64,000 bases of DNA from positions 620,001 through 684,000 of the forward strand of contig NZ_PDUW01000002.1 of NCBI RefSeq assembly GCF_003545815.1, given 5' to 3'. The notes under the pieces were generated by a model. It did no database searches. It saw only the letters and a program-made list of their open reading frames with translations, and was not told where the DNA came from. The position numbers and the translations under genes are program-made. Positions 59,594-64,000 of this stretch are shown piece by piece (position 1 is the first letter of the stretch; each line of letters starts with the position of its first letter). Origin of the DNA: Pusillimonas caeni. GTDB lineage: Bacteria > Pseudomonadota > Gammaproteobacteria > Burkholderiales > Burkholderiaceae_B.

Positions 59594-61246
59594 ATGGCAA
59601 CCATTGCCGAACCGACTCTCTTATCAATGGCCAACATCAATCCGACGGAGGCATCCAAGTCGTTTTTCCGCATCGACCTACGATGTCTCATCCTGTGCTT
59701 GTGTCTGTTCTTCGTATTTCTGGCACTGGCCAACAGCCTTCATGCCGCATACAAGGTGCAGCATGGCCTGCTGCTCAGGCATAGCTTCGACACGAACCGC
59801 GCCTATGCTGAGAAGCTTGCGCACGCGACGGATTCCTTCCTTGAATCATCCGCCCAGGCACTGCAGGCCGCCGCGTTGGACATTACTGAAACTCGGCTCG
59901 ATCCTGCCGCCATACAAAATGAGTTCGACCAGCTTGCCAGTATTACCGATGCCTTCGACGCAATCATTGCCGTCGACCTATCGGGCAAGATCATCGCCGC
60001 CAAACCAAGAAGCGCTTTCTTGAACGCCTTTCTGGAGGCGCCACAAGCGAGAGAGCTGCTCAACGCGAAAGAAGCCACGGCGATAAGCGGCGCTTTCAAA
60101 GGGCCGAGCGGCCGCTGGATGAGTATCGTCGCGCAGCCGATTTTCTCGCCGGATGGCGGCTATGCGGGGTTTATAGGCGGCACGGTGCTCTTGCAAAGCG
60201 GCAGTGCATTGCAAAGCGCTCTGACCAGGTTGCACTATCAGGAGGGCGCTTACTTCTACATCGTGGATGCAGAGAGAAGGATTGTCTATCATCCGACACA
60301 AGATCTCATTGGCTCCCGGTCGGAAGACATAGAATCCGCGCCGGTAGTGCCGCTTGGCGGAAGGGCAACACAATACCTGAGCGGCGTCGAGTCCGATGGC
60401 CAGCTCATCAGCTACGCGCCGATACCGTTCGCGGACTGGGGCGTCGTAGCCCAACGGCCGATCAAGCTGGCGTTATCCAACATTGGTGAACTGTTTTGGC
60501 GGACTTTTTATTATTCATTGCCGATATTCATCATCAGCTTGCTGGCCATCTGGTGGCTGTCGCGACTCATTGCGAATCCTTTGCGCCAGTTGGCCGAGGT
60601 TGCGGCCAATTTGGACAATCGCGCCAACTTCTTGCGCATCCGTTTTATCAAAGGCTGGTACCTCGAAGCGGCCATGATTCGGGAAGGCCTGATGCAGAGT
60701 TTTTCGGCGATCGGCAACCGGATGCGCAAACTCCACCGTGAAGGAACAACGGATCCGCTTACCGGTGTCGTCAACCGCAGAGGCCTGGAAACGGCCATTG
60801 AGGAACTGATGGAGACGGCGCGGGATGTGGCCGTAGTGATGATAGACGTCGATCACTTCAAAGCGGTCAATGACAAATTTGGCCATGCCGTTGGCGATGA
60901 AGTTCTGAAGGCCATTACCGGCTTGATTATGGCCGAAGCACGGAACGAAGACGTAGTAGCACGCATGGGCGGTGAAGAATTCGTCGCCTTATTACCTGAA
61001 ACGGGACTCGAGTCGGCAAGGCATTTTGCGGAACGACTGCGATCCACCATAGAGCAGGCTCGCTTTGACGTCGTCGGAAATGTGACCATTTCTCTCGGCG
61101 TCGCTTGTTATCCTGCGCATGGAGACGACCTTCGCGGCGCGCTGGCTATGGCAGATGCTGCGCTTTACCGGGCAAAGGCGGTCGGGCGCAATCGCGTGTT
61201 TCACGCCGCGGCGGTCGGCACCGATGACCGCTCCGCGCGGTCATGA
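59594..61246 (+). CDS. Cache-GGDEF diguanylate cyclase
   Basis: 550 residues. Helix 1 (31-50) and helix 2 (about 308-329) flank a periplasmic dCache-type sensor domain; a linker and a GGDEF domain follow with ARMGGEEF (active-site GGEEF) and an RxxD inhibitory site (RNED) five residues earlier. It should make c-di-GMP in response to a periplasmic ligand. Base composition is visibly lower in GC than the preceding operon. Overlaps the convergent DUF3396-like gene by 6 bases at its end. Confidence 0.92.
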   Translation: MATIAEPTLLSMANINPTEASKSFFRIDLRCLILCLCLFFVFLALANSLHAAYKVQHGLLLRHSFDTNRAYAEKLAHATDSFLESSAQALQAAALDITETRLDPAAIQNEFDQLASITDAFDAIIAVDLSGKIIAAKPRSAFLNAFLEAPQARELLNAKEATAISGAFKGPSGRWMSIVAQPIFSPDGGYAGFIGGTVLLQSGSALQSALTRLHYQEGAYFYIVDAERRIVYHPTQDLIGSRSEDIESAPVVPLGGRATQYLSGVESDGQLISYAPIPFADWGVVAQRPIKLALSNIGELFWRTFYYSLPIFIISLLAIWWLSRLIANPLRQLAEVAANLDNRANFLRIRFIKGWYLEAAMIREGLMQSFSAIGNRMRKLHREGTTDPLTGVVNRRGLETAIEELMETARDVAVVMIDVDHFKAVNDKFGHAVGDEVLKAITGLIMAEARNEDVVARMGGEEFVALLPETGLESARHFAERLRSTIEQARFDVVGNVTISLGVACYPAHGDDLRGALAMADAALYRAKAVGRNRVFHAAAVGTDDRSARS

Positions 61247-62248
61247 ATAGAATCGGCGCGCCCACCGGAGGCTCTCGTCCCAAGCCATCTCGCCGAAGAC
61301 CGGTCCGAATGATCGATAGGGTTCCGATTGGCCGATGCTCTCCATGTCTTCGTCCTTCACATGGAAATCATGTGGCCGCAGCCGTCGTCCCAGCGCGTGA
61401 TAGAGTTGAATATCGTGCGCGCCGTCAGCACCGGTTTCGCCAGTGACAGGTCGCGGCCCCAACTGGAAGATCACGCCATGCGGCGATTCATCGACCGTAA
61501 TTGCTGTGGGCAGGCCGTCGATTATTGCTTTTGCTCCACCTAGCCATGTGAGGAACGGCTCGCCGACCCCGGTCAGCCAGTTGATGCCGCCGATCCAGTA
61601 ATGATTGGGCTCCGTGTTGGGCCATTCGTCCGGAAAAGAATTGCGCGACGTCGCTGCAGCGAGATCGAGCGCCGGGTATTTTTCCGCAATGGGCGGTAAC
61701 TCGTTGGCATCATAGGTTTCGCGCAGCGAGAGGCCATAACCGGCCATTAAGCTGTAATACGGAATTTTTTGCAAGGCGGCCTTGACGCGCTCGATGTCAA
61801 GGCGTCCGGCCCGCCAGTCTTGAAGCGGAATGCAGGCGTCGAGAGTGGTGGCACCCCCATAGACGAAATAGCGGAATGAGCAGGGCTTGCCGCCGGCCAT
61901 CTCGCCGTCTTCGCGCCGGTCGATGAAATAGAACCCGGTCCAGATGCCGTGTTCGACATCGGAATAGACGGATTTCATATGTCTGAACGGTGTCCAGTCG
62001 CCGGGTCTGATTTTGTTGCCGCGGCGTGCCTTTGCCCCCGGCTTGTCCCACATGCGGATCCGATCGCAATGGTCCCGGAGAATCGGCGCGAAGCAGGCGA
62101 AGAGCTCCTCGAAGGCTTCGGTGTTGGTGTAAGGGTGTGCCTCTCGATAGGGAAAATAAGCGCAGAGGCGGAAGCAGGGAGCTACGGCGTCACCCAGCGT
62201 CCATGGTGGCGTGCCGTGTCCTTTGAAGATCGGATCGTTCTCCCACAT
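61241..62248 (-). CDS. Possible DUF3396 (type VI immunity-like) protein
   Basis: 335 residues with no signal peptide. The opening DAVAPCFRLCAYFPYREAHPY and internal SFRYFVYGGATTLDACIPLQD and WIGGINWLTGVGEPFLTWLGG resemble the DUF3396 family, annotated as type VI secretion immunity proteins. I recall the family but cannot confirm it by alignment. No vgrG, paar or effector gene is adjacent. The gene has lower GC than its left-hand neighbours. AGGAA lies just before the start. Confidence 0.5.
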   Translation of the reverse strand: MWENDPIFKGHGTPPWTLGDAVAPCFRLCAYFPYREAHPYTNTEAFEELFACFAPILRDHCDRIRMWDKPGAKARRGNKIRPGDWTPFRHMKSVYSDVEHGIWTGFYFIDRREDGEMAGGKPCSFRYFVYGGATTLDACIPLQDWRAGRLDIERVKAALQKIPYYSLMAGYGLSLRETYDANELPPIAEKYPALDLAAATSRNSFPDEWPNTEPNHYWIGGINWLTGVGEPFLTWLGGAKAIIDGLPTAITVDESPHGVIFQLGPRPVTGETGADGAHDIQLYHALGRRLRPHDFHVKDEDMESIGQSEPYRSFGPVFGEMAWDESLRWARRFYS

Positions 62249-62391: not shown

Positions 62392-63195
62392 CTAGGCAGA
62401 CTGACGTTGTGCAAACTCCGATGGTGATTGGCCAAACTGTTTCTTGAATGCCGTTGTATAGGCACTGTGGCTGTCATAACCGCTGTTCAATGCAACCTGA
62501 GTGATCGGTGCGCCTTGCATCAGTTGAGCAAGCGACGACATCAGGCGCAGCTGCTGGCGCCATTTGCCGAACGTCATGCCCGTGCTTTTGAGGAATCTGC
62601 GGTGAAAGGTTTTTTCGCCAATAGCTAATGTCGATGCCCAGTCTCCGGCTGTTGCATCGCGGCTTGGATCACCCATCAGGATGTGGCAGACATTTTGTAT
62701 CTGTGCGTCCTGCGGCCAGGGCAGGTGAAATGGCAAAGGGGGTGGAGTACCGAGTTCTTCGAGCAGCAGCTCGCCCAACAAATGTGTACGGCGAGAGAGC
62801 GGTGCCGTGTAGTCCGTGCACGTCAACTCAGTAATGACCTCCCTGAGCAGCCCGGATACTTGCACGACGCAGTCCGTGGTGGGCAGCTTCGCGCAGATGT
62901 CCTGGCGAATAAATAGGCCGTGCGCCTGCAAGGTAACCGGGACGATCAGGCGATGAGCAACCGCCGGACGCAGCCATACGGCAGAGGTGGGTGGAACCAG
63001 CCATTGTCCGGTTTCCGCCTCAACGCGTAGCAGTCCCCGACTCGCGTAGATCAGATGGCCGTGTTGATGTTGGTGCATGGGTACGACATGCCCCTGCGGA
63101 TAGTGCATGGCTACGCCCGTGACGGGCGGCTTCGATGCCGTCGCTGCATCTGGCTCGCATGGTTTAGCAGGCTGGACAGTGGATGAAACGTCCAT
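62392..63195 (-). CDS. AraC family transcriptional regulator with cupin sensor
   Basis: 267 residues. An N-terminal cupin (VVPMHQHQHGHLIYASRG) is followed by a double helix-turn-helix (TLAIGEKTFHRRFLKSTGMTF and VALNSGYDSHSAYTTAFKKQFG). The closest pattern is the short AraC regulators such as NimR/RipA that control efflux or metal genes. The divergent gene is leuA, but the AT-rich region between (63196-63306) also carries an inverted repeat that could be its own operator. Confidence 0.9.
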   Translation of the reverse strand: MDVSSTVQPAKPCEPDAATASKPPVTGVAMHYPQGHVVPMHQHQHGHLIYASRGLLRVEAETGQWLVPPTSAVWLRPAVAHRLIVPVTLQAHGLFIRQDICAKLPTTDCVVQVSGLLREVITELTCTDYTAPLSRRTHLLGELLLEELGTPPPLPFHLPWPQDAQIQNVCHILMGDPSRDATAGDWASTLAIGEKTFHRRFLKSTGMTFGKWRQQLRLMSSLAQLMQGAPITQVALNSGYDSHSAYTTAFKKQFGQSPSEFAQRQSA

Positions 63196-63229: not shown

Positions 63230-63251
63230 GTCTATTTTTATGTAGATAGAC
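63230..63251. promoter_or_regulatory. Inverted repeat upstream of the AraC-type gene
   Basis: GTCTAT (63230-63235) and ATAGAC (63246-63251) form perfect arms separated by 10 bases, in a strongly AT-rich stretch 35-56 bases from the AraC start. A further GTCTA lies nearby. It could be the binding site of that regulator. Confidence 0.35.
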
Positions 63252-63306
63252 AAAACAAGCAAACCTAATATGACAAAGAAATTCTCAATCAGGACTCATT
63301 CGTCTT

Positions 63307-63408
63307 ATGCCGCCGTTGGTTCGCCTTTCGTGCCTGCTACGACTACTGGCCTTTGGTCGGGGTCGGTACGCACTTGCTCGCGTCATGACCCATCCTGATT
63401 CCCCCTGA
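63307..63408 (+). CDS. leuL: Leucine-rich leader peptide upstream of leuA
   Basis: 33 codons from ATG at 63307 to TGA at 63406, translating MPPLVRLSCLLRLLAFGRGR followed by a short tail. Leu occurs at codons 4, 7, 10, 11, 13, 14 and 23; two use the rarer CTA codon. A peptide of this kind just ahead of leuA is the classical sensor of charged leucyl-tRNA. It has only a weak AGGA about 12 bases upstream. It is too short for normal gene tracks. Confidence 0.65.
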   Translation: MPPLVRLSCLLRLLAFGRGRYALARVMTHPDSP

Positions 63409-63466
63409 CCCCGACCACAGTCAGCTTTCCTTGAGCCAGGGGAGTCAGGTGTTATTGACCCCCTGG
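63354..63466 (+). promoter_or_regulatory. Attenuator-like mutually exclusive hairpins controlling leuA
   Basis: Arm 1 TGGTCGGGGTC (63354-63364) pairs with arm 2 GACCCCGACCA (63407-63417), 11 bp perfect. Arm 3 (63436-63447) pairs with arm 4 TGACCCCCTGG (63456-63466), 11 bp with one bulged A, and arm 4 contains half of the leuA Shine-Dalgarno (GGAG 63465-63468). Arm 2 bases 63404-63412 can alternatively pair with arm 3 (63440-63449; 9 bp, one bulge). Stalling at the leader Leu codons would cover arm 1, favour 2:3 and free the leuA ribosome site. There is no U-run, so control is probably of translation. Confidence 0.6.
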
Positions 63467-63475
63467 AGTATTGCT

Positions 63476-64000
63476 ATGCTGACTGACCCTTCTCGAAAAT
63501 ACCGTCCATTCCCGCCCGTCGATCTGGCGGACCGCCAATGGCCGTCGCGCACCTTGACGCAAGCCCCCGCCTGGCTGTCCACCGATTTGCGTGATGGCAA
63601 TCAAGCCTTGTTCGAGCCGATGAACCGCGAGCGCAAGCTGCGTTTGTTTCACGAACTGGTACGTATCGGTTTCAAGGAAATTGAGGTGGGGTTTCCGTCG
63701 GCGTCACGTACCGACTTCGACATCGTGCGTCATTTGATTGACGATGATCAGATTCCCGCAGATGTGACGCCCATGGTCATTACACAGTTGCGCGAAGATT
63801 TGATCGAGGAAACCGTACGTAGCGTAGCCGGTGCCCGGCGCGTGATTGTGCATTTCTACAATGCCATCGCACCTGCTTGGCGGGAAATCGTTTTCCAAAT
63901 GAGCGTGCCGCAGATCATCGAGATGGTTGAGCATCACATCGCTTTGTTCAAGCGGCTGACGGCAGCTCACCCGCAAACGCAATGGGTGCTTCAGTACTCT
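63476..64000 (+). CDS. leuA: 2-isopropylmalate synthase (3' partial)
   Basis: The first 175 codons run off the right edge. LSTDLRDGNQALFEPMNRERK and IEVGFPSASRTDFDIVRHLI are the metal- and substrate-binding segments of alpha-isopropylmalate synthase of the type found in many proteobacteria. The enzyme condenses 2-oxoisovalerate with acetyl-CoA, the first committed step of leucine synthesis in the cytosol. GGAG lies 7 bases before the ATG but is partly paired in the leader hairpin. Confidence 0.93.
   Translation, partial: MLTDPSRKYRPFPPVDLADRQWPSRTLTQAPAWLSTDLRDGNQALFEPMNRERKLRLFHELVRIGFKEIEVGFPSASRTDFDIVRHLIDDDQIPADVTPMVITQLREDLIEETVRSVAGARRVIVHFYNAIAPAWREIVFQMSVPQIIEMVEHHIALFKRLTAAHPQTQWVLQYS

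Follow-up and report, generated by a model that had tools for sequence, protein, structure and literature searches.

The locus analysed here raises the question of how a leucine-rich leader peptide might govern leuA, the gene for 2-isopropylmalate synthase that follows it. The window, by which we mean the whole 64,000-nucleotide stretch of Pusillimonas caeni DNA that was analysed, breaks off inside leuA, and the features that bear on the question lie near its end (Table 1). On the evidence set out below we think it probable, though well short of assured, that the leader works as a ribosome-operated translational switch, in which a conserved pseudoknot would keep leuA ON in leucine shortage and a competing fold, made of helix P5 and hairpin 3:4, would turn it OFF when leucine is plentiful.

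Table 1. Features of the leuA leader and its surroundings (window positions; leaders of the first type are the window's own kind, group A, and those of the second type are group C).
Feature	Position	Strand	Basis
Divergent AraC-family regulator	62392..63195	-	Next to leuA at 23 of 24 close loci (all but L015)
Possible promoter region: GTAGATRGAC box + TAATAT	63242..63271	+	Box conserved
Leader peptide ORF, 33 codons (MPPLVRLSCLLRLLAFGRGRYALARVMTHPDSP) + TGA	63307..63408	+	ORF call; Leu-rich counterparts in relatives
Conserved Leu codon (CTG), exactly 6 nt before helix 1	63346..63348	+	Leu in 25 of 25 first-type and 27 of 27 second-type leaders
Arm 1 (5' strand of helix S1 in the pseudoknot); codes for GRG as well	63354..63364	+	Pairs with 63407-63417
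Small hairpin P1a in loop L1 (63368-63371 with 63380-63383)	63368..63383	+	Summed stability over relatives
Element 2a, 5' strand of pseudoknot helix S2	63394..63404	+	Pairs with 63439-63449; covariation
Element 2b, 3' strand of S1	63407..63417	+	Overlaps leader stop 63406-63408
P5, 5' strand; pairs with leuA start region	63418..63425	+	MFE; permutation test
Small hairpin P3 between 2b and arm 3 (63424-63427 with 63433-63436); overlaps P5	63424..63436	+	Summed stability
Sequestering hairpin 3:4 (63436-63442 and 63444-63448 with 63455-63466)	63436..63466	+	MFE; summed stability
Arm 3, 3' strand of S2 or 5' strand of sequestering hairpin 3:4	63439..63449	+	Pairing comparison
leuA Shine-Dalgarno, GGAG	63465..63468	+	Sequence
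leuA (2-isopropylmalate synthase, PRK03739 type)	63476..64000	+	Runs on past window end
P5, 3' strand: G of leuA start codon and bases after it	63478..63485	+	Inverted repeat; MFE; permutation test

The leader peptide itself is much as a preliminary description of this DNA had it, a Leu-rich reading frame of 33 residues (63307-63408) with seven Leu, six of which fall within the first 14 residues. Among 151 genomes of the same family, which we take to be Alcaligenaceae, we counted 19 leuA copies, the window's included, that are 78-100% identical to the window's over the first 174 residues, and five named loci (L034-L038), whose leuA is 73-85% identical, bring the close copies to 24 in all. The RNA arms described below are present in 22 of these 24, and by reading they were not found in L036 and L037. 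A Leu-rich leader passed the ORF filter in 21 of the 22 arm-bearing close loci, counting the window; the L020 leader is Leu-poor, with two Leu in the 12 codons before S1. At one locus (L014, G008:C2:462738-463259) the arm set of the leader is intact, but the leuA open frame extends for only 200 aa, and this leuA may be broken. The window genome (4.4 Mb) also holds a second leuA, again of the PRK03739 type, that is preceded by a different Leu-rich leader. This second copy (L167, G000:C2:11001-12300) lies on the minus strand, and its own leader, which ends in LLLPIGCRA, stands about 160 nt upstream; leaders with GCRA, GCRT or GRRR ends occur at 14 of the loci L039-L113.

The preliminary description had reported two exact hairpins in the leader. 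The first, 1:2, is indeed exact, with 11 pairs (63354-63364 with 63407-63417), while 3:4 contains a bulged A (63443) and a G-U pair. Within the loop of hairpin 1:2, the segment CCTGATTCCCC (63394-63404) pairs with arm 3 (63439-63449) in the window and in 21 relatives. The two helices, S1 (the 1:2 pairing) and S2 (2a with arm 3), have no base in common and cross, and so amount to an H-type pseudoknot. Taken jointly over 22 sequences, they show standard pairs in 96.5% of 484 cells, and sliding the partner by 1-3 columns brings pairing down to 32-62%. Eight pairs have changed on both sides (shuffled mean 3.0, 0 of 500 shuffles), and the pair-type count is not above that of shuffles (15 vs 15.5 in the same 22 sequences). 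S2 alone is paired in 98.3% of 242 cells, with eight double-change cells (1.4 in shuffles, 0 of 500); the number of S2 pairs with a double change is two, not beyond shuffles (168 of 500), and within the first group these S2 changes all fall in one clade, the L011 type. Since relatedness can inflate counts of this kind, we mapped the changes on the leuA tree by parsimony (25 tips), which gave seven double changes (five in S1 and two in S2), 13 single changes that keep the pair and seven that break it, four of these last at the S2 end pair. The preliminary description had proposed looking for compensatory changes in relatives, and they are there: the leader is conserved, and S1 and S2 change in a compensating manner.

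All 22 aligned rows place 2b directly after 2a with no gap, so that S2 and the S1 core are 2 nt apart, as coaxial pseudoknot helices would need; L140, which is not among the 22 aligned rows, has one extra base at the junction. Comparison across relatives thus supports S1 and S2 as predicted structures, and the knot would presumably form inside the cell. The small hairpins P1a and P3 are stabler than shuffles when summed over 25 relatives (0 of 400 shuffled sets for each); taken on their own in the window, they fall short of significance (z -0.59 and z -0.92, respectively). When pseudoknots are charged a crude penalty, 10 of 22 sequences have the knot as their lower-energy state and 12 the nested fold, the window among the latter with a margin of 11.7 kcal/mol. 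The distance from 2a to the S1 core was preset by the search pattern in this energy balance, and the adjacency figure given above was taken from the aligned rows instead.

Two other origins for these patterns were considered and rejected. A chance fold is ruled out by the S1/S2 covariation and by the folding of 63307-63500, which is better than that of 200 of 200 shuffles (z -3.76). Conservation of the peptide does not explain the conserved DNA either, as arm 3 lies outside the leader yet covaries with 2a, and the L011-type leaders, L019 and L020 change residues with most pairs kept.

A looser version of the pseudoknot occurs ahead of leuA in a second group of 27 loci, whose founders are contigs of Curvibacter, Acidovorax, Paracidovorax, Roseateles and Hydrogenophaga. 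Two models were used in the wider searches: R1, in which S1 only was modelled, and R2, for the second type, with S1 and P3 only. R1 matched in 27 of 200 genomes of the window's family (two, L142 and L143, judged false by reading), in 4 of 150 genomes in the G280 family (two, L148 and L149, also judged false by reading) and in 5 of 399 genomes of the order. R2 matched in 16 of 250 genomes in the G280 family and 4 of 67 in the G361 family; class-wide it matched in 0 of 274, an empty answer that, from such a scan, shows nothing. Because S2 is absent from both models, the newly found loci test this helix independently. Cognate duplexes of 2a with arm 3 are stronger than mismatched ones in the first type (-21.2 vs -18.6 kcal/mol, n = 25, mostly R1 founders) and again in the second (-13.4 vs -11.7 kcal/mol, n = 27, of which seven are R2 founders), in each case with 0 of 5000 permutations reaching the difference. 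S2 is only short at the four G361-family loci; L144-L147 have a short helix and L166 a weak one, and L159 is weak in the duplex test, where its arm 3 is probably misassigned and counts against the result.

The samples behind these and the following figures differ somewhat. Four near copies (L013, L130, L131 and L133) were left out of the stability tests of P1a, P3 and 3:4 and of the duplex, Leu-codon, energy-balance, P5 and leuA-opening tests, and were retained in the ribosome masks, the tree parsimony and the stop-position counts; L013 was retained also in the covariation counts for S1 + S2, for S2 alone and for the alternative 2:3 pairing. L041 and L051 were left out of the second-type group. 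Other omissions were L116 (ribosome masks, energy balance and leuA opening), L140 and L141 (energy balance), L018 (P5 test, no hexamer recognised), L007, L012 and L014 (ribosome masks, no Shine-Dalgarno recognised), and L146 and L154 (arm 4 analysis of the second group, no leuA start recognised). The tree parsimony left out L116, L140, L141 and a locus that had no tip on the tree.

What might such a knot have to do with the peptide encoded across it? The codon 6 nt 5' of S1 (codon -3) is Leu in 52 of 52 leaders, CTG in all 25 of the first type and, among the 27 of the second type, CTA in 25 and CTG in two, and Leu is invariant at no other of the 15 leader positions counted. The spacing originally noted in the window is therefore upheld, its last Leu codon (63346-63348) standing 6 nt before the conserved core of arm 1, which begins at 63355. 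In the 12 codons before S1, CTA accounts for 54 of 113 Leu codons in the first type and 82 of 125 in the second (48-66%), whereas it accounts for 3 of 1179 (0.3%) in the leuA coding sequence of 28 loci and for 8 of 244 in four genes of the window. The fixed Leu codon and the CTA enrichment, both read from codon comparison, are strong evidence for a translated leader that would sense leucyl-tRNA, as had been suspected from the window.

The other end of the leader is constrained as well. The stop codon lies in or just past the 2a-2b block in 29 of 29 first-type leaders, at a distance from the first 2a base of 12 nt in 19, of 2 nt in four and of 24 nt, just past 2b, in six. In the window the TGA (63406-63408) overlaps arm 2, again in keeping with what was first described, and for a ribosome at this stop P5 would start about at the leading edge; a ribosome at the six late stops would overlap P5. 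Programmed frameshifting at the Leu codon was also considered, and rejected by reading, as a CTG or CTA 6 nt before the knot cannot be the YYZ of an X-XXY-YYZ site.

Turning to leuA itself, hairpin 3:4 had been said to cover part of its ribosome site, and it does reach into the GGAG (63465-63468), covering the GG. This hairpin is stabler than shuffles when summed over 25 relatives (1 of 400), although its segment has z >0 in seven of the 25 (L006, L015, L017, L021, L136, L140 and L141). The six-pair core of P5, which joins the RNA just past 2b to the leuA start, has all its pairs in 16 of 24 sequences, five in two and four or fewer in six (4 of 10000 permutations). Comparison in close relatives thus supports 3:4 and P5 as putative structures. 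P5 overlaps P3, which leaves two folds, S1 + S2 + P3 vs P5 + 3:4. Opening the leuA start in the window would take 20.2 kcal/mol in the OFF fold vs 4.8 in the ON fold, and over 24 sequences a mean of 11.2 vs 6.0, being easier in ON in 20 and harder in one; the ON state in this calculation is the RNA with the knotted part left out, and the figures presuppose the knot. The difference was reached by the shuffled-upstream control in 0 of 40 cases, and the OFF fold is accordingly computed, in this model, to close the leuA start. With simple ribosome masks, the region from -18 to +3 is more open with the ribosome stalled in 17 of 25 sequences and less open in four, while the Shine-Dalgarno alone shows no consistent difference under the masks (more open when stalled in 9 of 25 and with the ribosome at the stop in 11). 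Control at the start of translation, as first proposed, is favoured by the computed opening energies, and the mask calculation adds no consistent Shine-Dalgarno effect to it.

In the mechanism that we favour, the leader ORF would sense charged leucyl-tRNA through its Leu codons, a large share of which are the rare CTA, and arm 3 would be contested by the two folds. In the ON fold, S1 and S2 with the small hairpins in both loops would tie up arm 3 and leave the leuA ribosome site open; in the OFF fold, 3:4 (63436-63448 with 63455-63466) within P5 (63418-63425 with 63478-63485) would close both the Shine-Dalgarno and the start codon. Under leucine shortage, a ribosome would stall on the Leu codons, the last of which ends 6 nt ahead of S1; the knot would stay and leuA would be translated. 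When leucine is plentiful, the ribosome would pass S1 to the stop at 63406-63408 and cover 2a and 2b, and the RNA from about 63418 would then be free to fold into P5 and 3:4, shutting leuA.

We infer both the ribosome positions and the assignment of each fold to a leucine state, the latter from the geometry of frameshift stimulators. Most frameshift-stimulating structures start 6-9 nt past the shift site, at the site of mRNA unwinding (PMC5009743). A ribosome holding the Leu codon in its A site would have the base of S1 6 nt ahead, about where a pseudoknot meets the unwinding site, and by analogy S1 would probably be left intact; it is on this ground that we take the knot to be the state of leucine shortage, with leuA ON, and P5 with 3:4 to be that of plenty, with leuA OFF. 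The geometry in the preliminary description may therefore have another meaning, in that a stalled ribosome probably leaves helix 1 in place and does not mask it.

The best of the other explanations is classical attenuator logic applied to translation, in which the stalled ribosome masks arm 1 so that arm 2 pairs with arm 3, and 1:2 and 3:4 form otherwise, the pseudoknot being irrelevant. The hairpins 1:2 and 3:4 can indeed coexist, both being part of the window MFE, and with the footprint sizes usual for ribosomes an intrusion of about 5 nt into arm 1 is possible. However, the pairing required is not the one that relatives keep. A 2:3 pairing that excludes both hairpins had been claimed, with no coordinates given, but its candidate (63404-63412 with 63441-63449) is only 73.7% paired in 22 sequences, with covariation within that of shuffles, and is thus not conserved. 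The 2:3 helix that is conserved, by contrast, has no base that overlaps 1:2; the conserved partner of arm 3 (63394-63404) excludes 3:4 and not 1:2, so the supposed set of three mutually exclusive pairings is not supported, and the gapless junction of 2a and 2b in every aligned row (22 of 22) also speaks against this logic. We regard it as unlikely, if still worth keeping in mind, and hold to the pseudoknot switch.

It seems to us quite improbable that control is exerted on transcription, through a Rho-dependent or terminator-like state with the pseudoknot as terminator or antiterminator. In favour of it, leuA in the second group starts 52-133 nt past arm 3, with runs of 4-6 T between them in 14 of 25 loci, arm 4 is not conserved (mean z -0.16, 25 loci), and the leader stop lies upstream of 2a in 15 of the 20 loci examined; the output of this group may differ from that of the first and might be transcriptional. 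Shewanella leuA, moreover, is predicted to use transcription attenuation of the terminator type (PMC2659441). In the window leader, on the other hand, a terminator scan found no terminator-like site, whether in 3:4 or after it, which disposes of an intrinsic terminator at 3:4 and agrees with the lack of a U-run noted at the outset; the sole site that the scan returned (63179-63195) is upstream of the leader. In addition, 3:4 and P5 between them take in bases of the Shine-Dalgarno and start codon, and P5 shows covariation in close relatives. One second-type leader, that of L146 (G447), is followed by sequence with no recognisable leuA start, and the leuA there looks truncated or fused.

How does the proposed translational switch compare with systems already described? 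The actinobacterial LEU element likewise has a leader ORF with Leu codons and a conserved pseudoknot before leuA, together with a base stem that connects the run of Leu codons with the Shine-Dalgarno of leuA (PMC1262725; Seliverstov et al., 2005). This stem is absent from the window, where the MFE pairs the Leu codon region within the leader and not with GGAG, and where the run holds no CTCC; in the window the knot comes after the Leu codons and the start would be closed by 3:4 and P5. Because the base stem is absent, we do not file the window element as a LEU element. That the knot binds a small molecule or a protein in the manner of a riboswitch, with the leader peptide secondary, we consider very improbable indeed: the compact knot with hairpins in both loops would suit such a role, and the authors of the LEU element argued for a regulatory protein (PMC1262725), but the conserved letters are by reading mostly in helices or codons, and the fixed Leu codon with the CTA enrichment points to translation as the sensor.

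Rfam 15 holds no credible match to the window element (best 14.4 bits, E 1.4, gathering 45), and it gave no match at E <=0.5 over the element in the 14 element-bearing loci among 18 loci scanned. An element of this kind in beta-proteobacteria is not described among the literature matches listed, which comprise titles and the beginnings of abstracts, with subscription journals thinly covered. Nearest in kind are the predicted actinobacterial LEU element and the repZ-type pseudoknots.

Textbook amino-acid attenuation works with nested hairpins and a terminator, and the E. coli leuL attenuator places a leader peptide with Leu codons and competing RNA folds before leuA. The window has such a leader and competing folds in common with it. 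However, in place of the leuL-type protector and antiterminator, which share bases, the window has a pseudoknot; unlike attenuators of the leu/trp type, it has no terminator hairpin with a U-run between leader start and leuA, and its S2 has arm 3 in common with 3:4 and no base in common with S1. In repZ/repBA of IncI and IncL/M plasmids, a pseudoknot tied to translation of a leader peptide turns on the downstream start, with the response set by an antisense RNA and the knot permitted by leader termination, whereas here amino-acid starvation would be the trigger and leader termination would break the knot. In erm-type translational attenuation, ribosome stalling in a leader ORF also frees a downstream ribosome site, but the trigger is an antibiotic and the structures are nested hairpins, not a knot.

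If our reading is correct, a leader peptide would be read through a conserved pseudoknot onto a translation start in beta-proteobacteria, a second case of different construction next to the actinobacterial LEU element, which is itself unexplained. Because the Leu codon keeps an exact 6-nt distance, it becomes testable whether the knot tunes the sensitivity of the ribosome to tRNA charging. A bolder proposal, which we offer as speculation and think improbable, is that the knot is the mechanical part of the sensor, with the invariant CTG or CTA setting the knot at the unwinding site of the ribosome and acting as a checkpoint at which tRNA charging and opening force together decide leuA translation, and that this knot and the actinobacterial LEU element are one ancient device carried along with PRK03739-type leuA. 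The PRK03739 cut-off was passed by one of 14 control genomes, which we take to be that of Corynebacterium glutamicum, one of five candidates.

Upstream of the leader, a GTAGATRGAC box is found in 10 of the 12 loci looked at, and with the TAATAT that accompanies it in the window it may mark a promoter region; a consensus scan found no promoter. The box speaks, if only indirectly, against a transcription start downstream of 63354, which the preliminary description had named as refuting its proposal. The AraC regulator gene is kept in L036 and L037, in which the leader is absent. Adjoining this gene in the window, 61241-62248 on the minus strand encodes a TsiV-domain protein (so named after Pfam, type VI immunity for VRR-NUC). 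One relative has a sub-threshold match to the Guanidine-I riboswitch downstream of its leuA start (L005:3376-3486; 53.1 bits, gathering 63, E 1.3e-6). Finally, just past the window and downstream of leuA (L003:4540-7000), an AAA ATPase and a subtilase match IetA and IetS of PADLOC, and this pair is a candidate anti-phage defence system.
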